Source: a virus
IMG/VR virus record: IMGVR_UViG_3300011115_000146
Location: 1 to 37,964 of that record
DNA: 37,964 nucleotides
Direction: 5' to 3' (one strand)
In this document: one piece after another, positions 2,062 to 37,964 of the stretch
Numbering within the stretch: the first letter of the stretch is position 1
How the letters are laid out: each line of letters starts with the position of its first letter
The notes under the pieces: model-generated
What the model saw: the letters and a program-made list of their open reading frames with translations, nothing else
The model's database searches: none
Told to the model about the DNA's origin: nothing
Translations under genes and position numbers: made by a program

Positions 2062-4281
2062 ATGGCAAATACCACGATTTCAGCACTACCGTCAGCGACT
2101 ACCCCGCTCGCGGGTACTGAAGTCGTTCCAATTGTCCAGAGTGGCGTAACCAAGAAGGTTGCCGTAAGTGCTATTGGGGGCGGTGGCTCGGGTACGGTCA
2201 CCAGCGTTGGGATCTCTGCCCCGGCATTTTTGTCGGTTTCGGGAAGCCCAGTTACTACATCGGGAACACTTGCGCTTTCGTATTCCGGTACTGCGCTGCC
2301 CGTTGCCAACGGCGGTACGGGTCAGACGACGGCAAACGCTGCGCTTAACGGGTTGTTGCCGTCTCAGTCTGGTCAAAACGGCAAAGTTTTGTCTACTGAC
2401 GGGACAAATACAACTTGGACTGCTGTAACCGGCACGGGAACGGTTACCAGCGTTGCGCTTTCTGCACCAGCATTTTTGACTGTTAGCGGCAGTCCAATTA
2501 CAGCGTCTGGAACGCTTGCGCTGTCGTATTCTGGAACGGCTTTGCCTGTTGCAAATGGTGGTACAGGCGCAACTACCACAACGGCTGCGTTTGATGCGCT
2601 TGCACCCACCCAAACCGGCAATTCTGGAAAGTATTTAACCACCAACGGCGCAACAACGTCTTGGGCTACGGTGTCTGGCGGCGGCTCCCCCGCTGGTGCA
2701 GACACGCAAGTTCAGTACAACAGCGGCGGGACTTCTTTTGGTGCTTCGTCAGCGTTTACGTTTACTAGTGCTACTGGACTGGTAACCGCTACTGGTTTTG
2801 CAGGTGCGCTTAACGGCACGGTTGGTGCTACGACGCCAACAACCGGGGTGTTTACCACCGCAACTGCTCGCTCAAGCGCGGTACAAGATTCTGTTACTTT
2901 GCAAGGCCGAGCCGGTGGCACTAACAGCTATGGCGTAACGCTTACGCCAACGACGCTGACTGGTAGCCGGACGCTGACGCTGCCAGACGCAACTGGCACT
3001 ATATTGCAAAGCGGTACGGCTGTTACGGTTCCGCAAGGTGGTACTGGACTAACGTCCGGCACTTCTGGTGGTGTTCCATACTTCTCTGCCGCTAACACAA
3101 TTGCATCAAGCGCAGCGTTAACAAATAACGCGCTAATGATTGGTGGAGGTGCTGGTGCTGCCCCTGCAACCATTGCCACCGGAACTGGTGTTGTTGGCGC
3201 TCTTGGCACTAACGTCGGGTCGGCGGGGGCGTTTGTCACTAATGGCGGCGCTCTCGGGACGCCTTCGGGTGGTACGGTCACGAATCTGACCGGCACGGCC
3301 AGCATCAACATCAATGGAACGGTTGGGGCGACAACTCCTGCTGCCGGTACGTTTACAACGGTTGGTTATAAAGGATCAACGTCAGGAACAATTACTTTCC
3401 AAGCACCAGCGGTTGCAGGGTCAGCAACATATACATTGCCAAGTTCAGATGGCACATCTGGTCAAGTGCTTTCCACTAACGGTTCTGGAACGCTTTCTTG
3501 GGTTACTGCTGGCGGTGGCTCTTCAGTCACACCAACTGTTGAATATCTTGTTGTCGCTGGCGGTGGAGGTGGCGGCGGCACAAACAGCGGAGAACCCGGA
3601 GGTGGCGGCGCTGGTGGTTATTTAACCAATGCTGCTTATGTTGTTTCTGCTAGTTCAACATATAACGTAGTTGTGGGAACCGGTGGTTCAGCGGGAAGTA
3701 TTGCGGTAACTGGCGGAAATGGGTCGTCTTCTTCTTTTGGAACTGGAACGGTAACCAATTCTGCGGCAACCAGCGGAACAATTACTTCTGTTGGCGGTGG
3801 AGGTGGTGGTTCCGCAGGGCCAATTAATGCCGACGGAGCAAATGGTGGCTCTGGGGGTGGCGGCTCTTACCAACATACTTTTGGAACTGCAACCTCTGGG
3901 CAAGGAAACAACGGCGGTGCTGGCTGGTCAGGTGGAGTTAGTGGCGGCGGCGGCGGCGGCGGCGCTGGTGGTGTAGGTGGTACAGGCGCATCCGGTTCAA
4001 ATGGTGCGGGCGGTATAGGCATCAACTGGAATAGTTTAGGAACGACGTATGCCATTGGCGGCGCGGCTGGCTCATCTAATGGTTCTGGGCCAACAGCATA
4101 TACTGGTAATGGCGGCGCTGGGAATTATCTTACTGGGTATGCTGGGGCTACTGGTATTGTTGTTGTCCGTTACGCAGACACTTATCCAGCAGCAACTTCC
4201 ACAACTGGTTCGCCAACAATTACAACCTCTGGCGGGTATCGTTATTACACTTGGACTGGCGCTGGTTCAATTACGTTCTGA
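2062..4281 (+). CDS. Tail fibre-like protein with glycine-rich C-terminal domain
   Basis: A 739-residue, low-complexity, Gly/Thr/Ser/Ala-rich protein. Two tandem units of about 80 residues (roughly 45-205) share the order GTVTSV, APAFL, SGTLALSYSGTALPVANGGTG and GK-L-T-G. They are followed by further short beta repeats (PQGGTG, GALGTPSGGT, TLPDATGT) typical of phage fibre shafts. From about residue 490 to the end there is a poly-Gly domain with runs of 5-8 Gly ending in RYYTWTGAGSITF. This matches the glycine-rich adhesin domain found on many marine and enterobacterial phage fibres. A role in host recognition is likely. A fibre gene between portal and scaffold is unusual for P22-like gene order. 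The 5' quarter is repeated, diverged, at 37136-37964. Confidence 0.8.
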   Translation: MANTTISALPSATTPLAGTEVVPIVQSGVTKKVAVSAIGGGGSGTVTSVGISAPAFLSVSGSPVTTSGTLALSYSGTALPVANGGTGQTTANAALNGLLPSQSGQNGKVLSTDGTNTTWTAVTGTGTVTSVALSAPAFLTVSGSPITASGTLALSYSGTALPVANGGTGATTTTAAFDALAPTQTGNSGKYLTTNGATTSWATVSGGGSPAGADTQVQYNSGGTSFGASSAFTFTSATGLVTATGFAGALNGTVGATTPTTGVFTTATARSSAVQDSVTLQGRAGGTNSYGVTLTPTTLTGSRTLTLPDATGTILQSGTAVTVPQGGTGLTSGTSGGVPYFSAANTIASSAALTNNALMIGGGAGAAPATIATGTGVVGALGTNVGSAGAFVTNGGALGTPSGGTVTNLTGTASININGTVGATTPAAGTFTTVGYKGSTSGTITFQAPAVAGSATYTLPSSDGTSGQVLSTNGSGTLSWVTAGGGSSVTPTVEYLVVAGGGGGGGTNSGEPGGGGAGGYLTNAAYVVSASSTYNVVVGTGGSAGSIAVTGGNGSSSSFGTGTVTNSAATSGTITSVGGGGGGSAGPINADGANGGSGGGGSYQHTFGTATSGQGNNGGAGWSGGVSGGGGGGGAGGVGGTGASGSNGAGGIGINWNSLGTTYAIGGAAGSSNGSGPTAYTGNGGAGNYLTGYAGATGIVVVRYADTYPAATSTTGSPTITTSGGYRYYTWTGAGSITF
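2689..2815. repeat. 127-base exact repeat of the right contig end
   Basis: Read base by base, this stretch of the fibre gene is identical to 37838-37964, the last bases of the window. Immediately upstream the two copies differ (2688 C versus 37837 T). An exact 127-base match that ends at the contig end is the expected mark of k=127 de Bruijn assembly. Confidence 0.9.
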
Positions 4282-13906: not shown

Positions 13907-14641
13907 ATGCCTTGGATGATAGCTGCGGCCACCGTTGCGTCGGCGGTTATGGGGTCTAGATCGGCCAGCAAAGCCGCCGATGTACAAGCGCAAGCAACTC
14001 AATCCGCGCAAGATGCTCAAGAACGGATGTTCAACAAACAAGTTGAACTGCAAGAACCGTTTCGACAAGCTGGCGTTGGGGCGCTAAACAAACTGGTTTC
14101 TCTTAGTGATTACACCAAGTTTGGACAAGATCAGTTTCAGCAAGATCCTGGGTACGCGTTTCGGCTGTCCGAAGGTATGAAAGCACTTGACCGCACCGCT
14201 GCTGCTCGCGGCGGTTTGTTGTCTGGTGCCGCCCTTAAAGGGGCGACGCGGTACGGTCAAGAGATGGGTTCGCAAGAGTATCAAAACGCTTTTAACCGTT
14301 ACCAAGCAGAACGGGCGGCGCAACTTAACCCGCTGCAATCGTTGGCCGGTGTTGGTCAAACTTCTGCCAACACGCTGACCGGAGCGGCGGGCGCGTTTGG
14401 CGCACAGACAGGTCAAAACTTACAAGATGTCGCAAGCGCCCGCGCTTCTGGGTATCTGGGTGGGGCAAACGCGTTGTCCAGTGCTCTTGGTCAAGGCGGG
14501 CAAATGTATCAGTACAACCAACGCACAAATGCGTTGTCAGATATGTATGGTCGCGGTGGAAGCAACGCCGCGCCAATTTACGCGGCTACGCCTAGCTACG
14601 CTAGCAATTTGCTACCCGGCGGCGTCGGCAACCCATACTAA
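13907..14641 (+). CDS. Internal virion/DNA ejection protein (P22 gp7-like position)
   Basis: A 244-residue protein. A hydrophobic Ala/Val segment at residues 2-15 (PWMIAAATVASAVMG) is followed by an Ala/Gln-rich helical stretch. The conserved block 'DPGYAFRLSEGMKALDRTAAARGGLLSGAALKG' lies at about 80-112, then 'NALSSALGQGGQMYQYNQ'. This block is widespread in podovirus ejection proteins in the gp7 position. Such proteins leave the virion with the DNA and help it cross the cell envelope. It is the first of three consecutive genes of this class and lies where P22 has its ejection genes. Confidence 0.75.
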   Translation: MPWMIAAATVASAVMGSRSASKAADVQAQATQSAQDAQERMFNKQVELQEPFRQAGVGALNKLVSLSDYTKFGQDQFQQDPGYAFRLSEGMKALDRTAAARGGLLSGAALKGATRYGQEMGSQEYQNAFNRYQAERAAQLNPLQSLAGVGQTSANTLTGAAGAFGAQTGQNLQDVASARASGYLGGANALSSALGQGGQMYQYNQRTNALSDMYGRGGSNAAPIYAATPSYASNLLPGGVGNPY

Positions 14642-16141: not shown

Positions 16142-18187
16142 ATGGCTGAAAATCCGTTTGCCCAATTTGTTAAGCAACCTAATCCTTTTGCTCAGTTTGT
16201 CACGCCGTTACCAAGCGCAACACCAGCAGACATCCCCGGCGCAGTCCCTCAACCAGAAGTTGATCAAGGGCCATCTTTTTTTGCAAGAGTAGGCGCGGTT
16301 CCGGAAACCGCTGCAAGAATGATCTACGGTGGCTTGACTGGTATAGCCGCAGCGCCGATTGGTTTGGGTAAAGAAATTTTGACTGGTACTCCCAAGGAGC
16401 AGACCGCCCGTCAGATTATGGAATTGGGTAGTAACGTACCCATCAGTCCTGCTGCACAAGCAAATCTTCAGACGGTTGGCAATCTAATGCCCAACCTTCC
16501 TGCGTTTGTACCTGCTGTTGGTCAAGCAGGCCAAATCGTTCAAGGCGCAAACGCACTTGCTACTCGAGCGACACCAGCGGCACAACGTGCCGTTCAAACG
16601 GTGCAAAATGCTTTGACGCGAACGCCAGAAACACAAGCAACCCAACCGTCTACTTTCCCTGCTGCGTTGCCCATTTCTCCTGCTGTTCCTGTTGCAAGCG
16701 TTGGCGCTCAACGGGCTAAAAACAATCCGTTTTCTGGTATTACCGGGGAAGAAACTGCTCGAGGCAATTTCCCTTCGGTCAAACAATCAAAAACGGCAGC
16801 AGATGTTGCAGTTCCAGAACAAGAAACAAGAGCAACGATTGCCGCAGAAATTCTTGGGGATGTTAACCGTATTCGCCCTGGCGTTTTGACTGGTAACGAA
16901 AACACGTTACGTACAGAATACACAGAAGCCAAGATGCCGCAACCAACACCAAGTGGTGAGTTGCTCAAGCGTCAGTTGGCTGACGAGCAAACTGCTTTAA
17001 GTCGTTATGCCCAACAACGTGTTCAAAATAGTGGGGCCAGCCCTACTCTTATGAATCCTTATGAGCGTGGCGAAAGAATTAACAGCGCGTTGTTCCCGAC
17101 AAACCCAATTGAAGAACCATATCAAGGTTTGACTGGCGCGTTTAACTTAGAAAAGCGTAATCTGTACAACGAAGTAAAGTCAAAAGTTGGTTCCAACCCA
17201 ATTGAGTCTACTCACGTTTCAGACCTGCTTAAAGACCAACAATTTAGGGCTGGCCTTGGGCTAAAAGGAAACGAAGGCGTAGCTTCCAGCGCAGAAAAAC
17301 TGATCAACTTGGCAAGAACAACTGGTTTTAGAGATGAAGCTGACGTTACGCACGCGCCAAATACAGTTGACGCTTGGGTTGCCGTGCAAAAAGCATTGAA
17401 CAAAAACTGGACTCCAGACAACGCTGGAGTAATTAAAAGAATCAACGAGGCTATTGAAAAGGACATTGGTGCTGCTGGCGGCATTGAATTACTCAAAAAA
17501 GCAGACTCCCTGCATCGAGTACAAAAAACTTTGCTTGAGTCAAAAGGTATTAAAGATCTGTTTGGTTCAGTTGATCCAAATGGCGTGCAGACTGGCGTGG
17601 ATTTTGAAAGAATTCCGCAACGCATGAACAGTATGCCGTTTGACCAATGGCGGCACATTTACGATCTGGTTGACTCGGTTGCTAATGGAAAAATTCCTAA
17701 ATCACCAGATTTTGTTGTCAGTCCAGAACTTCAACAAGCCGCTTCCTCTGCTAGAGCGGAAATCAAAGGCAACATTGCAAGGGAAATTTACGAGTCTGGA
17801 TCAAAACGGGCTGGCGTATGGAACGCTGAAGACGCCAACAAAACAATGAACGCTCGAGATCAAAAAATCAGACACGCTTTTGATCCTGATGAACAACGGG
17901 CGTTTCACGTTCTCAATTACGGTGGCTACTTGATGCCTGGTTCTCATGCTTATGAAGGTGCTGCACTTCAAAAACAACGTCTGGGTGGAATTGTTGGTTC
18001 GTTGCCTACGGCTGGTCAAGAAGCTGGTGCGCTTATACCAATCCCAGGCGCTTCCACGGCAGGTCGTTTTTTGGGAACCAAGGCCCAAGAATTTCTTGGT
18101 GGAAGAAACGAACTGAAACGAGCGCAAGAACTTGAAGCGCAAATGACTCAAAATGCTTTGATTGGGCAAAGACGCAGGAATCCATAA
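16142..18187 (+). CDS. Large putative ejection protein
   Basis: A 681-residue protein whose ATG follows the previous stop directly. It opens with a tandem NPFAQFV repeat (residues 4-10 and 14-20). A Gly/Ala-rich amphipathic segment, 'MIYGGLTGIAAAPIGLGKEILTG' (about 60-82), could insert into a membrane. The rest is long, helical and charged, with no enzyme motif. The order of three consecutive ejection-like genes after the tailspikes, followed by lysis genes, parallels gp7-gp20-gp16 in P22. It would enter the cell with the DNA. Assignment is by position, size and composition rather than clear family recognition. Confidence 0.62.
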   Translation: MAENPFAQFVKQPNPFAQFVTPLPSATPADIPGAVPQPEVDQGPSFFARVGAVPETAARMIYGGLTGIAAAPIGLGKEILTGTPKEQTARQIMELGSNVPISPAAQANLQTVGNLMPNLPAFVPAVGQAGQIVQGANALATRATPAAQRAVQTVQNALTRTPETQATQPSTFPAALPISPAVPVASVGAQRAKNNPFSGITGEETARGNFPSVKQSKTAADVAVPEQETRATIAAEILGDVNRIRPGVLTGNENTLRTEYTEAKMPQPTPSGELLKRQLADEQTALSRYAQQRVQNSGASPTLMNPYERGERINSALFPTNPIEEPYQGLTGAFNLEKRNLYNEVKSKVGSNPIESTHVSDLLKDQQFRAGLGLKGNEGVASSAEKLINLARTTGFRDEADVTHAPNTVDAWVAVQKALNKNWTPDNAGVIKRINEAIEKDIGAAGGIELLKKADSLHRVQKTLLESKGIKDLFGSVDPNGVQTGVDFERIPQRMNSMPFDQWRHIYDLVDSVANGKIPKSPDFVVSPELQQAASSARAEIKGNIAREIYESGSKRAGVWNAEDANKTMNARDQKIRHAFDPDEQRAFHVLNYGGYLMPGSHAYEGAALQKQRLGGIVGSLPTAGQEAGALIPIPGASTAGRFLGTKAQEFLGGRNELKRAQELEAQMTQNALIGQRRRNP

Positions 18188-29587: not shown

Positions 29588-29707
29588 CAACCGTAACACG
29601 CCGTAACACGGCGTAACATGTTACGGCGGCAAAGGCGTTTTTACCGTAACGTAACGTAACACACTCTTAGAGTGTTACGGTGTTACGGTACGATGCGGGC
29701 CGTTACG
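29583..29707. repeat. CGTAAC/GTTACG iteron-like array (candidate origin or operator)
   Basis: Seven CGTAAC (starting 29583, 29592, 29602, 29612, 29645, 29650, 29655) and four GTTACG (29620, 29674, 29682, 29702) lie within 125 bases. The first four direct copies are spaced 9-10 bp. CGTAACATGTTACG at 29612-29625 is a perfect palindrome, and ACACTCT-T-AGAGTGT at 29661-29675 is a second dyad. The array occupies most of the 158-bp gap between primase and methyltransferase genes. Initiator binding fits, and so does a repressor operator. Confidence 0.75.
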
Positions 29708-29745
29708 GTGATGTAGGATGTCGCATTGAGGAGAAAATCGGTAAC

Positions 29746-31032
29746 ATGAAAAAAATTAGTATGAATCCAGCAGATCAGGTGGAAAAGTGGGATATTGAAA
29801 AGTTGATCCCCTACGCGAGAAATGCCAGGACGCACTCAGATGAGCAGGTTGGGCAGATCGCTGCTTCGATCCGTGAGTGGGGGTGGACGACACCTGTGCT
29901 AGTAGATGAGGATGGAGGGATCATCGCGGGACACGGCAGGACGATGGCAGCAAAACGTCTTGGGATGCGTGAAGTGCCTGTGATGGTTGCTCGAGGATGG
30001 AGTGACGAGAAGAAACGAGCCTACGTCCTGGCCGACAACAAGTTGGCTATTAACGCTGGTTGGGACGAGTCAATGTTGGCCCTAGAACTAAAAGAACTGG
30101 GCGAGACAGGGTTTGACCTAGATTTGACTGGTTTTTCCTTAGATGAGATCAATGCGCTCACGCCAATCGAGGTGGAACCGGGGCTAACCGATGAGGATGC
30201 CGTTCCAGAGGCCCCAGATGAGCCTACAACGCGACTTGGCGACATTTGGATACTAGGACACCACCGACTGATGTGCGGCGATTCTACGTCGATTGACGCG
30301 GTTGAGAAATTGATGAATGGATCGCTTGCCGATCTTGTCGTTTCCGATCCTCCTTACGGAGTCAGCTACGCAGATAAAAACAAAAGTTTGAATTCGGTGA
30401 ACAAGGGGAATCGCAACCAAACTCCAATTAAAAATGATCATCTGAAAGATGGCGCATTGGAAGATTTTTTTCTTGGTGCTTTTTCCGCAATTTTCATTGC
30501 AATAAAACCCGGCGCTCCATTTTACATTTTTGCTCCTCAAGGTGGTGAGCAAATGATGATGATGATGATGATGATGCAAAAAGCGAGCCTGCCGGTGCGT
30601 CATGAGTTAATTTGGGTAAAAAATAATCACGTTTTAGGAAGGGCTGATTACCATTACAAGCACGAACCTGTTTTGTATGGATGGAAAGAAGGCGCTGGTC
30701 ATCCGTGGTATGGAGAAAGAAGCAAGTTTAGTATTTGGAATGTAAACAGACCAAATCAATCAAAACTTCATCCAACTATGAAACCTGTTGAATTGTTGGA
30801 AATCCCAATTAACAACAGTAGCAAAGGGCAAGACGTTGTGCTCGACCTATTCGGCGGCTCAGGATCTACGCTCATTGCTTGCGAGAAAACAGCACGGCAA
30901 TGCAGGATGATGGAACTTGACCCCAAGTATTGTGATGTGATAATTAAACGATGGCAGGATTACACAGGCAATCAAGCAATCCATGCAAAAAACTCCAAAA
31001 CATTCAATGAGTTAGCATCGAATGGAAGTTGA
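29746..31032 (+). CDS. ParB-like domain fused to beta-class DNA methyltransferase
   Basis: I choose the ATG at 29746, after GAGGAG. The protein has 428 residues. The N-terminal ParB/sulfiredoxin-like domain covers about 14-110 ('LIPYARNARTHSDEQVGQIAASIREWGWTTPVLVDEDGGIIAGHGR'). Then comes the methylase with DPPY (201-204) ahead of FGGSGST (369-375), the motif order of beta-class N6-adenine or N4-cytosine enzymes. Residues 270-277 are eight consecutive Met encoded by (ATG)8. The middle (30380-30830) is clearly more AT-rich than both ends. Such fusions in phages protect DNA against restriction or mark it for replication or packaging. The target sequence is not predictable from here. Confidence 0.87.
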   Translation: MKKISMNPADQVEKWDIEKLIPYARNARTHSDEQVGQIAASIREWGWTTPVLVDEDGGIIAGHGRTMAAKRLGMREVPVMVARGWSDEKKRAYVLADNKLAINAGWDESMLALELKELGETGFDLDLTGFSLDEINALTPIEVEPGLTDEDAVPEAPDEPTTRLGDIWILGHHRLMCGDSTSIDAVEKLMNGSLADLVVSDPPYGVSYADKNKSLNSVNKGNRNQTPIKNDHLKDGALEDFFLGAFSAIFIAIKPGAPFYIFAPQGGEQMMMMMMMMQKASLPVRHELIWVKNNHVLGRADYHYKHEPVLYGWKEGAGHPWYGERSKFSIWNVNRPNQSKLHPTMKPVELLEIPINNSSKGQDVVLDLFGGSGSTLIACEKTARQCRMMELDPKYCDVIIKRWQDYTGNQAIHAKNSKTFNELASNGS

Positions 31033-32233: not shown

Positions 32234-33757
32234 ATGCAAAAAACTCGCTACAGCGCCGAAGACGAACAGATCCTGATGACCAAACTCTGGTCGCCAACGA
32301 TTGCGGATAACCCGGAGAACTTCGTCTTGTTCGCGTTCCCGTGGGGCCAAGCGAACACGCCGCTGGCGAAGTTCAGCGGGCCGAGAAAGTGGCAGCGAGA
32401 GATCCTGCGAGACATTGCCGCCCACATCAAGGCGAATCAGGGCAAGGTGGACATGGAGACGCTGCGCGAAGCAGTCTCGAGCGGGCGCGGAATTGGCAAG
32501 AGTGCGCTGGTGAGTTGGTTGATCCTGTGGATGCTGACCACTAGGATTGGTTCAACGGTGATTGTGAGTGCGAACAGCGAGAGCCAGCTACGCTCGGTGA
32601 CCTGGGGTGAGTTGACCAAGTGGCAGGCGATGATTATTAACAGCTACTGGTGGGAGATCAGTGCCACGAAGATTGTGCCGGCTGCGTGGTTAACGGAACT
32701 GGTTGAACGGGATTTGAAGAAGGGAACGCGCTATTGGGCGGCAGAGGGGAAGCTTTGGTCTGAGGAAAACCCAGATGCGTATGCGGGTGTGCATAACCAT
32801 GACGGCATGATGTTGATCTTTGATGAGGCGTCGGGGATACCAGATCCGATCTGGGCGGTGGGTTCTGGGTTCTTTACCGAGAACATTCTGGACCGCTATT
32901 GGTTTGCGTTTAGTAACCCCAGGCGTAACAGCGGGTACTTTTTTGAGACATTCCACGGCAAACGGGATTTCTGGAAAGGCAAGCAAATTGATGCGAGGGA
33001 AGTGGAAGGCACGGACAAGAACACTTATGAGCAGATCATTGCCGAGTACGGTGAAGATTCTCCACAAGCGCGGGTGGAAGTGTACGGAGAGTTCCCAGCG
33101 AGTGGGGATGATCAGTTTATTGGACCCAGGATTGTGGACGATGCGATGGAAAGGGAAAAGTATAAAGACACGACTGCGCCGATTGTCATTGGGGTTGATC
33201 CGGCGAGGGGTGGGTTAGATGCGACGGTGATTGTGGTGAGGCAGGGCCGGGACATTGTGGCGATCAAGAGGTTCCGTGGGGACGATACGATGACCACGGT
33301 TGGTAATGTGATTGACGCGATTGAGGAGTACAAGCCAACGCTGACGGTCATTGATGAAGGCGGTCTAGGGTATGGGATACTTGACAGGTTAACGGAGCAG
33401 CGGTATAAGGTGAGGGGTGTCAATTTTGGCTGGAAGGCAAAAAACCCAGTGATGTGGGGCAATAAGCGGGCGGAGATGTGGGGTGCGATGCGGGACTGGT
33501 TACGGTCTGCGAGCATTCCGAAGGATCGGCAACTGAAAGCAGATTTGGTCGGACCCATGAAGAAGCCCAATAGTGCCGGGACTATCTTTCTTGAGGGAAA
33601 GAAAGAGATGAAGGCTAGGGGGTTGGCGAGTCCTGATGCGGCGGATGCGTTGGCAGTGACGTTTGCTTACCCCGTGGCGCATCGTGAGTACAAAGAGCCA
33701 CCTAGGACGTTAAAGTCTAGTGGGTCTACAATGTCTGGATCTTGGATGGGTGCATAG
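32234..33757 (+). CDS. terL: Terminase large subunit
   Basis: A 507-residue protein with an AAGGGAT ribosome-binding site. The ATPase has a deviant Walker A SGRGIGKSA (83-91) and Walker B MLIFDEAS (193-200). The RNase H-like nuclease starts at GVDPARGGLD (320-329), with VIDEGGLG (372-379) and a C-terminal 'SPDAADALAV' Asp motif (about 465-475). The fold and motif order match headful-packaging terminases. It translocates DNA into the procapsid and cuts it when the head is full, which fits the circularly permuted assembly seen here. Confidence 0.92.
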   Translation: MQKTRYSAEDEQILMTKLWSPTIADNPENFVLFAFPWGQANTPLAKFSGPRKWQREILRDIAAHIKANQGKVDMETLREAVSSGRGIGKSALVSWLILWMLTTRIGSTVIVSANSESQLRSVTWGELTKWQAMIINSYWWEISATKIVPAAWLTELVERDLKKGTRYWAAEGKLWSEENPDAYAGVHNHDGMMLIFDEASGIPDPIWAVGSGFFTENILDRYWFAFSNPRRNSGYFFETFHGKRDFWKGKQIDAREVEGTDKNTYEQIIAEYGEDSPQARVEVYGEFPASGDDQFIGPRIVDDAMEREKYKDTTAPIVIGVDPARGGLDATVIVVRQGRDIVAIKRFRGDDTMTTVGNVIDAIEEYKPTLTVIDEGGLGYGILDRLTEQRYKVRGVNFGWKAKNPVMWGNKRAEMWGAMRDWLRSASIPKDRQLKADLVGPMKKPNSAGTIFLEGKKEMKARGLASPDAADALAVTFAYPVAHREYKEPPRTLKSSGSTMSGSWMGA

Positions 33758-34071: not shown

Positions 34072-34325
34072 AGAAAAGCGTGTCTTTATCGGTTGGGCGC
34101 GGCGAGAAACTCTCGGTCAAAGAGGGCGCTGGTCTGACCGCGAAAGGGCGCGAGAAGTATAACGCGGCGACTGGTAGTCATTTAAAAGCACCAGCGCCAA
34201 ATCCTAAGACTGAAGCCGATAAAGGGCGCAAGTCTAGCTTCTGCGCTAGAATGGAAGGCGTTGTAGCCCACGCAAAAGGCGATGCTGAACGTGCCAAGGC
34301 ATCCTTGAAACGCTGGAAGTGTTGA
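34068..34325 (+). CDS. DUF6321-like basic protein
   Basis: An 85-residue protein. 'SLSVGRGEKLSVKEGAGLTAKGREKYNAATGSHLKAPAP' (about 5-43) and 'GRKSSFCARMEGVVAHAKGDAERAKASLKRWKC' (about 53-85) match DUF6321, a family common in environmental podoviruses next to portal and terminase genes. It is strongly basic with two Cys. A role in packaging or DNA binding is plausible but unproven. Its stop overlaps the portal start (TGATG). Confidence 0.78.
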   Translation: MKKSVSLSVGRGEKLSVKEGAGLTAKGREKYNAATGSHLKAPAPNPKTEADKGRKSSFCARMEGVVAHAKGDAERAKASLKRWKC

Positions 34326-36490
34326 TGTCTGACTACACTGGTATTAACGCTGTCGGCAACGTCGCACTTGGGGGTAAACCCTTAAAGAGCGACTCAGATG
34401 TGTTGTCAACAGCGCGGGATCGCCTGTCGATGGCAATTTCGGCGTATTCCGAGAGCAGGGAAGACGAGTTAGACGATCTGCGGTTCTACGCAGGCAGTCC
34501 AGATAACCAGTGGCAGTGGCCGGCAGATGTGCTGGCGACCCGTGGTGCGGTGCAGGGTCAGACGATTAACGCGCGGCCATGCTTGACGATTAACAAGCTG
34601 CCGCAGCACGTCCACCAGATTACCAACGACCAGCGTCAGAACCGGCCTAGCGTCAAGGTCATCCCTGTTGATGATAATGCTGACGTTGAGGTTGCCGAAG
34701 TTTTTAACGGCATGGTGCGTCACATTGAGTACATCTCTGACGCAGATGTAGCCTACGACACGGCGTGCGAGAACCAAGTCGCCTACGGCGAGGGGTACAT
34801 CCGGGTTCTGACCGAGTATTGCGACGACAATACGTTCGATCAGGACATCAAGATTGCGCGGGTGAGGAACAGTTTCTCGGTCTACATGGACCCGCTGATC
34901 CAAGATCCGTGCGGCAGCGATGCTGAGTGGTGTTTTATCACCGAGGACTTGTCTAAAGCCGAATACGCACGGCTTTTCCCCAACGCTTCCCCGCTTTCCA
35001 CGCTGGAAACGCTGGGTGTAGGGGATCAGAACCTAAGCCAGTGGCTAAATACGGATACGATCCGTATTGCTGAGTATTTTTACTGCGAATACGACACGCA
35101 GACGTTGAATTTGTACCCTGGCAACGTGACTGCGTTCCAAGGGACGCCGGAAGACAAAGAGTTGCGGGCGGTTTACGGCAAGCCAAAGAAGTCGCGCCAA
35201 GCGGATCGCAAGAAGATCTGCTGGACAAAGATAAACGGCTACGAAATCCTTGAAAAGCAGGAATGGGCGGGTAAGTTCATCCCTGTTGTTCGGGTAATTG
35301 GCAACGAATACGAGGTTGAGGGCCGGATTTACATCAGCGGGTTGGTGCGTAACGCCAAAGATGCCCAACGGATGTACAACTATTGGACTAGCCAAGAGGC
35401 AGAAATGCTGGCGCTGGCGCCAAAGGCTCCATTTATTGGTTATGGCGGTCAGTTTGAGGGGTATGAGACCCAGTGGAAGACTGCAAACACGCAGAATTGG
35501 CCGTATTTGGAGGTCAATCCTGATGTGACGGACGGTCAGGGCGCGGTTTTGCCGTTGCCCCAACGTGCGCAGCCCCCTATGGCGTCATCTGGTTTGATGC
35601 AAGCTAAAGTTGGCGCTTCTGAAGACATTAAGTCTTCAACTGGGCAGTACAACGCCTCGCTAGGCATGACTTCTAACGAACGCTCTGGCAGGGCTATTCT
35701 GGCCCGTCAGCGTGAGGGTGATGTTGGTACTTATCATTACCAAGACAACCTAGCGCGGGCTGTTCGCCATGTTGGGCGCCAGTTGGTCGATATGATCCCC
35801 AAAATCTACGACACGCAGCGCATCGCTCGCATTATTGGTCTGGATGGCGAGACCAAGATGGTCAAGATTGACCCGATGCAGCAAGAACCAGTGCGTAAGA
35901 TCCAGAACCAAGAAGGGGTTGTGATCGAAAAGGTCTACAACCCGTCTGTTGGTAAATATGACGTGGTGGTTGCGACGGGTCCAGGGTACGCTACAAAGCG
36001 TCAGGAAGCGCTGGAAGCAATGGCCCAACTGCTACAGGGTAACCCGCAACTGTGGACCGTGGCTGGCGACTTGTTTGTCAAGAACATGGATTGGCCTGGT
36101 GCTCAAGAGATGGCAAAACGGTTTGCCAAGACGATTGACCCCAAACTTATGGGTGAAGCCGAGGACAATCCAGCCTTGCAAGCCGCTAACCAGCAGATGC
36201 AAGCAATGGCGGCAGAACTGGATCAGTTGCACCAGATGCTTCAAAATGTCGGCAAATCCATGGAAGCGCAGGACATGGAGCGCAAGGATTACGAAGCTAA
36301 GATCAAGGCGTTTGACGCTGAAACCAAACGCATCAGCGCGGTTCAGGCGGGTATGTCAGAGCAGCAGATCCAAGACATTGCGATGGGCGTGGTGGCTGCG
36401 GCTATGGAATCACAGAGTATGCTAATGCCGGAAATGCGTGAGGGACCTACGCAAATGGAAATGATGCCTGATCAAGGGGTTATGCAATGA
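34325..36490 (+). CDS. Portal protein, complete (P22 gp1-like)
   Basis: I choose the ATG at 34325, coupled to the previous stop; a GTG at 34319 is possible. The protein has 721 residues, close to P22 gp1 (725). 'ESREDELDDLRFYAGSPDNQW' (about 42-62), 'RPCLTINKLPQHVHQITNDQRQNRPSVKVIPVDD', 'YISDADVAYDTACENQVAYGEGYIRV' and 'ERSGRAILARQREGDVGTYHYQDNLARAVRHVGRQLVDMIP' are hallmarks of P22-type portals. The C-terminal helix-rich tail (about 600-721) would form the barrel. It is a component of both packaging motor and virion. The 3' part is repeated, diverged, at 1-1416. Confidence 0.92.
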   Translation: MSDYTGINAVGNVALGGKPLKSDSDVLSTARDRLSMAISAYSESREDELDDLRFYAGSPDNQWQWPADVLATRGAVQGQTINARPCLTINKLPQHVHQITNDQRQNRPSVKVIPVDDNADVEVAEVFNGMVRHIEYISDADVAYDTACENQVAYGEGYIRVLTEYCDDNTFDQDIKIARVRNSFSVYMDPLIQDPCGSDAEWCFITEDLSKAEYARLFPNASPLSTLETLGVGDQNLSQWLNTDTIRIAEYFYCEYDTQTLNLYPGNVTAFQGTPEDKELRAVYGKPKKSRQADRKKICWTKINGYEILEKQEWAGKFIPVVRVIGNEYEVEGRIYISGLVRNAKDAQRMYNYWTSQEAEMLALAPKAPFIGYGGQFEGYETQWKTANTQNWPYLEVNPDVTDGQGAVLPLPQRAQPPMASSGLMQAKVGASEDIKSSTGQYNASLGMTSNERSGRAILARQREGDVGTYHYQDNLARAVRHVGRQLVDMIPKIYDTQRIARIIGLDGETKMVKIDPMQQEPVRKIQNQEGVVIEKVYNPSVGKYDVVVATGPGYATKRQEALEAMAQLLQGNPQLWTVAGDLFVKNMDWPGAQEMAKRFAKTIDPKLMGEAEDNPALQAANQQMQAMAAELDQLHQMLQNVGKSMEAQDMERKDYEAKIKAFDAETKRISAVQAGMSEQQIQDIAMGVVAAAMESQSMLMPEMREGPTQMEMMPDQGVMQ

Positions 36491-36849
36491 AGTGCGCGGA
36501 TTTTGTAGGTCTGCTATTCTTAGGGCGTGACGTAGCGCATTCGGTTCATCTTAATACCAGAAGCTACAGCAAGCACAAAGCGCTACAGAAGTTCTACGAA
36601 CTGATCATTGAAGCGGCAGATGATTTTGCCGAAGCGTACCAAGGTCGGCATGGCTTGATCGGCCCAATCACGTTGATGACTGCCAAGAAAACGACTAACA
36701 TCATAGAATTCTTGGAAGACCAACTGAAGGAAATCGAGGCTTGTCGGTACGAAGTTGTGGACAAGACGGATATGTCTTTGCAGCAGTTGATCGACAACAT
36801 CATCGAAATCTATCTCAGAACCCTCTACAAACTGCGCTTTTTGGCGTGA
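36487..36849 (+). CDS. Conserved phage helical protein, right copy
   Basis: The protein has 120 residues and differs from the left copy (1413-1775) at one position that I can see (Ile for Val near residue 108). It shows the same 4-nt overlap with the portal stop. Many silent differences in DNA show that the two copies come from different lineages. In the closed genome this is the resident copy. Confidence 0.7.
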   Translation: MKCADFVGLLFLGRDVAHSVHLNTRSYSKHKALQKFYELIIEAADDFAEAYQGRHGLIGPITLMTAKKTTNIIEFLEDQLKEIEACRYEVVDKTDMSLQQLIDNIIEIYLRTLYKLRFLA

Positions 36850-36856
36850 GGTAATT

Positions 36857-37132
36857 ATGGCTGCGACGTACAAATATCTAACCGCCTCGGCCAACGTGAA
36901 GACGATGGCGGGCAAGCTAAAGGGCATTTTCGTGTCTGCCGCCAGTAGTACGCCTACGATTACGGTGTACAACAGCGAAGCCGCAACGACTAGCGACACG
37001 ATTGTTGGTGTGTTTACGCCAACTGGTGCGACCAGCTATGTGTTCACCGGCGACGAAGGTGGTGTGTACTTTAGCTCTGGTCTGTACATTGTGATCAGCG
37101 GAACTGTCGCTGCAACGGTGTTTTTCGAGTAA
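36857..37132 (+). CDS. Small beta-rich virion-associated protein, right copy
   Basis: The protein has 91 residues and carries several conservative changes relative to 1783-2058 (for example Thr for Pro at about 18, Ser for Gly near 32, Glu for Ala near 43, Val for Thr near 66). It has the same GAGGTAATT ribosome-binding site and the same spacing to neighbours. Confidence 0.65.
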   Translation: MAATYKYLTASANVKTMAGKLKGIFVSAASSTPTITVYNSEAATTSDTIVGVFTPTGATSYVFTGDEGGVYFSSGLYIVISGTVAATVFFE

Positions 37133-37135
37133 AGC

Positions 37136-37964
37136 ATGGCAAATACCACGATTTCAGCATTACCGTCAGCGACTACCCCGCTCGCGGGTACTGAAGTCGT
37201 TCCAATTGTCCAGAGCGGCACGACCAAGAAAGTTGCGGTCAGTAACCTAATTAGCCTGACCACCACTGGAACCAGTGGTGCGGCTACGTTTGTTAATAGC
37301 GTTCTCAATATTCCGCAGTATTCTGGTGGTGGTGGATCTGGCACTGTAACGAGCGTTGGTCTTTCTGCACCTGCGTTTTTGTCGGTTACGGGAAGCCCGG
37401 TTACGACATCTGGAACGCTTGCGCTTTCGTATTCTGGCACTGCGCTTCCCGTTGCCAACGGAGGTACGGGTCAAACGACGGCAAACGCTGCGCTAAATGG
37501 TCTGTTGCCATCTCAGACTGGTCAAAACGGCAAAGTTTTGTCTACTGACGGGGCAAATACAACTTGGACTGCTGTAACCGGCACGGGTACGGTTACGAGC
37601 GTGGCAATGTCCGTTCCGGCATTTTTGTCGGTTACCGGGTCGCCGATTACCGCTAGCGGCACTTTGGCCGTTTCGTTGTCTGGCACGGCTTTGCCGGTTG
37701 CTAATGGCGGCACTGGCGCAACTACAGCAACTGCTGCGTTTGATGCGCTTGCCCCATCGCAGACGGCCAACTCTGGCAAATACCTGACAACCAACGGCAC
37801 AACAACGTCTTGGGCCACGGTGTCTGGCGGCGGTTCTCCCGCTGGTGCAGACACGCAAGTTCAGTACAACAGCGGCGGGACTTCTTTTGGTGCTTCGTCA
37901 GCGTTTACGTTTACTAGTGCTACTGGACTGGTAACCGCTACTGGTTTTGCAGGTGCGCTTAACG
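37136..37964 (+). CDS. Tail fibre protein, N-terminal part (cut by contig end)
   Basis: The frame is open to the last base. It aligns with codons 1-251 of the fibre gene at 2062-4281 but carries 25 extra residues after the shared 'TKKVAVS' (NLISLTTTGTSGAATFVNSV... segment, residues about 37-61). The final 127 bases are identical to 2689-2815. If the ends are joined there, the full fibre continues from 2816 to 4281 and would be 25 residues longer than the left version. Confidence 0.82.
   Translation, partial: MANTTISALPSATTPLAGTEVVPIVQSGTTKKVAVSNLISLTTTGTSGAATFVNSVLNIPQYSGGGGSGTVTSVGLSAPAFLSVTGSPVTTSGTLALSYSGTALPVANGGTGQTTANAALNGLLPSQTGQNGKVLSTDGANTTWTAVTGTGTVTSVAMSVPAFLSVTGSPITASGTLAVSLSGTALPVANGGTGATTATAAFDALAPSQTANSGKYLTTNGTTTSWATVSGGGSPAGADTQVQYNSGGTSFGASSAFTFTSATGLVTATGFAGALN
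37838..37964. repeat. 127-base exact repeat of 2689-2815 at the contig end
   Basis: It is identical to 2689-2815 over 127 bases and ends at the last base of the window. Joining the two copies gives a closed unit of 35,149 bases (2816-37964). Confidence 0.9.

Follow-up and report, generated by a model that had tools for sequence, protein, structure and literature searches.

This locus raises the question of whether the window (the whole stretch of DNA analysed, 37,964 nucleotides of one IMG/VR virus record) comes from a phage with two portal genes and two fibre genes, or whether the second set was produced during assembly. Self-comparison of the window confirmed the starting observation of an earlier note on this DNA: the last 127 bases (37838-37964) are identical to 2689-2815, the window holds two copies of this segment, and the match breaks at the first base upstream (C at 2688, T at 37837). 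No end-to-end overlap was detected in the window; the match runs from the end to the interior, with the inner copy at 2689-2815 and not at base 1. A search of the window also revealed no inverted repeats at its ends. From the sequence, we consider it about 90% probable that the arrangement is an artefact of short-read assembly, and that the window consists of a 2,688-nt tail and a closed P22-like genome, circular or permuted, that occupies 2689-37837 (35,149 bp). The apparent second portal and fibre very probably represent no real duplication. The join and the two parts that it delimits are as follows.

37838-37964, + strand: terminal copy of the 127-nt join, an exact match to 2689-2815 within the fibre gene; the putative vertex of the assembly graph at which the contig meets itself again
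2689-2815, + strand: inner copy of the 127-nt join, an exact match to 37838-37964, within the fibre gene
1-2688, + strand: overhang (the tail of a lasso), 86.6% identical to 35096-37837, its portal not sister to the other copy (AU p 0.002); probable origin in a related phage
2689-37837, + strand: putative closed genome of 35,149 bp, a loop set by the 127-nt match, with size and gene order agreeing with closed relatives

The length of the repeat was compared with assembler settings. The JGI metagenome recipe runs metaSPAdes with -k 33,55,77,99,127 (PMC11584781), which fits the earlier remark that 127 is the largest k-mer of common assemblers; for the window, k = 127 was taken from the usual pipeline of the collection and from the same length in relatives. 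The overlap of the window thus equals the largest k of this recipe, and a terminal direct repeat was not found. Passages of the COBRA paper (PMC10914622) state that contig ends at graph branch points share exactly maxK bases, and that such breaks arise from repeats, regions common to genomes and within-population variation. The comparison described in these passages is of contig ends with contig ends, whereas the end of the window matches its own interior. Because of this, end-to-end tests call the window linear, as does IMG/VR, which classes the record as linear. A literature search found nothing specific on lasso-shaped contigs.

A de Bruijn graph path would account for this structure. The assembler (probably metaSPAdes with a largest k of 127) would enter the graph on the tail 1-2688, which would belong to a related phage of the same sample, and would meet the path of a second phage at the shared 127-mer 2689-2815, where the fibre gene is conserved. 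From there the path would circle the circular or circularly permuted genome of the second phage once (2816-37837) and stop on reaching the same 127-mer again. The real unit, about 35,149 bp long, would then contain a single portal gene and a single fibre gene (764 aa).

The window and 156 relatives, 157 whole contigs in all, were surveyed for self-overlaps. Five (G009, G011, G029, G045 and G047) carried end-to-end repeats of exactly 127 nt, marking closed circles, and four (G019, G021, G022 and the window) had end-to-interior overlaps of the same exact length, so that lassos were not rare here compared with plain closed contigs at k 127. The loops of the other three lassos measured 37,168 bp (G019), 37,435 bp (G021) and 36,719 bp (G022); as in the window, each match ended in a mismatch at the next base with homologous sequence beyond. 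G019 (L086/L087), G021 (L092/L093) and G022 (L094/L095) are probably likewise closed genomes, each carrying a tail of foreign or variant sequence. All self-overlapping contigs were at least 35.9 kb, and none of the shorter fragments carried an exact 127-nt overlap. Contigs of one sample also shared exact 127-nt ends with each other (G002/L135, and L209/L211 at both ends), and L209 and L211 would fit one stretch present in two variants. After removal of the overlap, the closed relatives measured 35.8-38.1 kb, and the loop of the window (37838 minus 2689, 35,149 bp) lies slightly below this range. These results support the earlier estimate of a closed genome of about 35.15 kb.

Repeats of other lengths were recorded in the same survey. 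Four genome-length contigs carried exact 123-nt end repeats (G001, L084/L085; G040, L233/L234; G041, L235/L236; G051, L255/L256), perhaps reflecting another largest k, and the end repeats of other contigs were 62-117 nt long. In G031 (L105), the last 114 nt (17043-17156) were an inverted copy, 99% identical, of 14150-14263, 3 kb inside the contig, perhaps a hairpin-type artefact of assembly or library preparation.

The genes on which the comparison of loop and overhang rests are listed below.

32234-33757, + strand: terminase large subunit (phrog_2, E 1.4e-42)
34319-36490, + strand: full-length P22-like portal gene, 723 aa (PF16510, E 1.1e-178; PDB 7sfs, E 2e-42, and 3lj5, E 1.5e-27)
36487-36849, + strand: helical protein, DUF5856 (PF19174, E 3.3e-20), directly 3' of the portal
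36857-37132, + strand: small beta protein, an open reading frame
37136-37837, + strand: fibre N-part of the loop; the reading frame runs off the contig end and continues in frame on to 2689-4281 if the genome is closed
1-1416, + strand: 5'-truncated portal of the overhang, cut by the contig start
1413-1775, + strand: helical protein of the overhang
1783-2058, + strand: beta protein of the overhang, 94.5% identical to the copy at 36857-37132
2062-2688, + strand: fibre N-part of the overhang
2062-4281, + strand: fibre reading frame as printed in the contig, combining the overhang N-part with the loop C-part; contains a glycine-rich domain (PF21722)

The window portal matched solved P22-type portals by sequence, and the major capsid protein matched the P22 coat protein (PF11651, E 2.2e-41), both the portal and coat profiles scoring above their cut-offs; head closure, scaffold and terminase were assigned via PHROGs. 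The small beta protein had no match in PHROGs. The nearest named phage found by terminase was DSL-LC05 from Dishui Lake (OR003940.1; circular, 37,569 bp; terminase 76% identical), which has one portal and the same gene order, while environmental relatives reached terminase identities of roughly 70-99%. The window resembles the P22-like phages (Salmonella phage P22 and DSL-LC05) in its P22-type portal and coat, scaffold, head closure and terminase-portal-scaffold-coat order, but its environmental relatives differ from them in a variable fibre block between portal and scaffold. In genome-length relatives, the terminase is consistently followed by portal, helical protein, scaffold and capsid, and the fibre genes usually lie between the helical protein and the scaffold.

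Whether the loop truly closes bears on the strongest alternative, in which 2689-2815 joins pieces of two phages and the true continuation of the phage of the loop (phage B) past the 127-mer lies elsewhere. Position 37837 is tied to 2816 by 127 nt only, and the portion after 2816 could go with the overhang. The fibre region is also highly variable among relatives: the distance from portal start to scaffold start, an interval spanning the fibre genes, lies between about 2.9 and 11.2 kb, which suggests that these genes are often exchanged. No fetched contig near the window (at least 93% identity over the region) spans the closing join, and the only exact match to a 53-base probe of the join was L083 (4,082 bp), from another phage. 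Against such a chimera, 2689-37837 holds a full gene set arranged as in closed relatives, the loop length fits theirs, and by frame arithmetic the fibre frame stays open across the closing join, giving 764 aa if closed. We consider this alternative improbable, and infer that the tail originates in another phage (phage A), that 37837 is directly followed by 2689 on one molecule, and that the region after 2816 belongs to phage B, not A.

The two homologous stretches, copy A (1-2688) and copy B (35096-37837), were then compared, bearing on whether one phage genome truly duplicated its portal-to-fibre block in tandem and the copies have since diverged. As previously described, the copies are homologous, diverged and in the same gene order (portal, helical protein, beta protein, fibre N-part). 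The alignment showed 86.6% identity over 2667 ungapped columns, with two gaps (21 nt near the end of the portal, 75 nt in the fibre). Protein identity was 92.9% for the portal, 99.2% for the helical protein, 94.5% for the beta protein and 91.9% for the fibre N-part, and the corresponding dS values were 0.80, 0.40, 0.49 and 0.63. With dN/dS of 0.02-0.10 and 151 of 197 portal differences at third codon positions, purifying selection acts on both copies, whose reading frames are intact except where the contig start truncates copy A. This intactness would favour a duplication, but the contig start cuts copy A, and the repeat at the contig end is exactly 127 nt, the usual largest k. A tree of the shared part of the portal placed copy B with nine other phages (support 100/99) to the exclusion of copy A, which fell outside with G040 (weak support, 83/75); a sister relationship of A and B was rejected (p-AU 0.002), although recombination can disturb such a tree.

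Portal number was assessed in 59 records besides the window, with the full portal as query. A match was present in 56, and at a single place in 53 of these. The two-place records were explained by a portal split across the 123-nt end repeat (G001), by a lasso (G019) and by adjacent pieces of one gene (G018), so that no relative carried two full portals except another lasso. A true duplication was rejected on the single portals of relatives and the portal tree, and we regard it as very improbable; as the earlier note had warned, an annotation with two portals and two fibres would very probably be false. Reading the window as a closed genome with a tail prevents such a false report.

The distance between the copies also bears on the nature of the overhang. 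Copies A and B are 87.0% identical to each other, and 86.9 and 87.0% identical, respectively, to G007 from another sample. The usual species limit is 95% identity. Because 87% is well under this limit, the overhang is, judged by sequence, from a different, related phage at species-level distance, and no minor strain variant. The earlier reading of a closed genome with an overhang is supported; the term strain variant understates the distance, at 87% identity and a portal dS of 0.8.

Phages commonly carry terminal repeats. A T7-like physical terminal redundancy of the packaged DNA is nevertheless extremely improbable and was rejected, since the match runs end-to-interior and not end-to-end, the sequence beyond it is 13% divergent, relatives break at many genome places with the same 127-nt length, and portal and coat are of the type of P22, a headful packager. 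The break points of the closed relatives, at many places in the genome, are consistent with permutation without proving it; together with the P22-type proteins, they would favour a circularly permuted headful genome over a plain circle.

The shared 127-mer stands out from its surroundings. Elsewhere, the homologous copies match exactly over at most 68 nt, and at 86.6% identity the probability of 127 straight matches at a given place is near 1e-8, assuming independent sites. The segment is 96% identical in L083, from another sample, with flanks at 85-90%, indicating local conservation. The merge point may have arisen through conservation, through recent recombination or through both. Real recombination between the two phages at the 127-mer is also possible, because this segment is without differences in surroundings where roughly every seventh site differs. 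We only tentatively suggest that an identical 127-mer in an 87% background records recent recombination, within the fibre gene, of two P22-like phages that occur together; if true, the graph merge point would mark a real exchange of receptor-binding modules.

The end repeat of the window is very probably an ordinary assembly artefact, serving mainly as an annotation warning and as a simple way to detect complete genomes among contigs classed as linear. The check is simple: where the terminal maxK bases of a contig recur inside it, the contig probably represents a complete genome to which a foreign or variant tail is attached, even though it is listed as linear.

Further observations concern two genes of the loop. 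The DUF5856 gene (36487-36849) overlaps the portal stop, and every genome-length relative examined has a homologue following its portal. Its protein is 99% identical between the copies although dS is 0.4, and the PHROGs label of its family is starvation-inducible regulator (predicted). The ParB-N/DNA methylase protein (29680-31032) contains a run of eight methionines, encoded by an ATG repeat, within its methylase domain.
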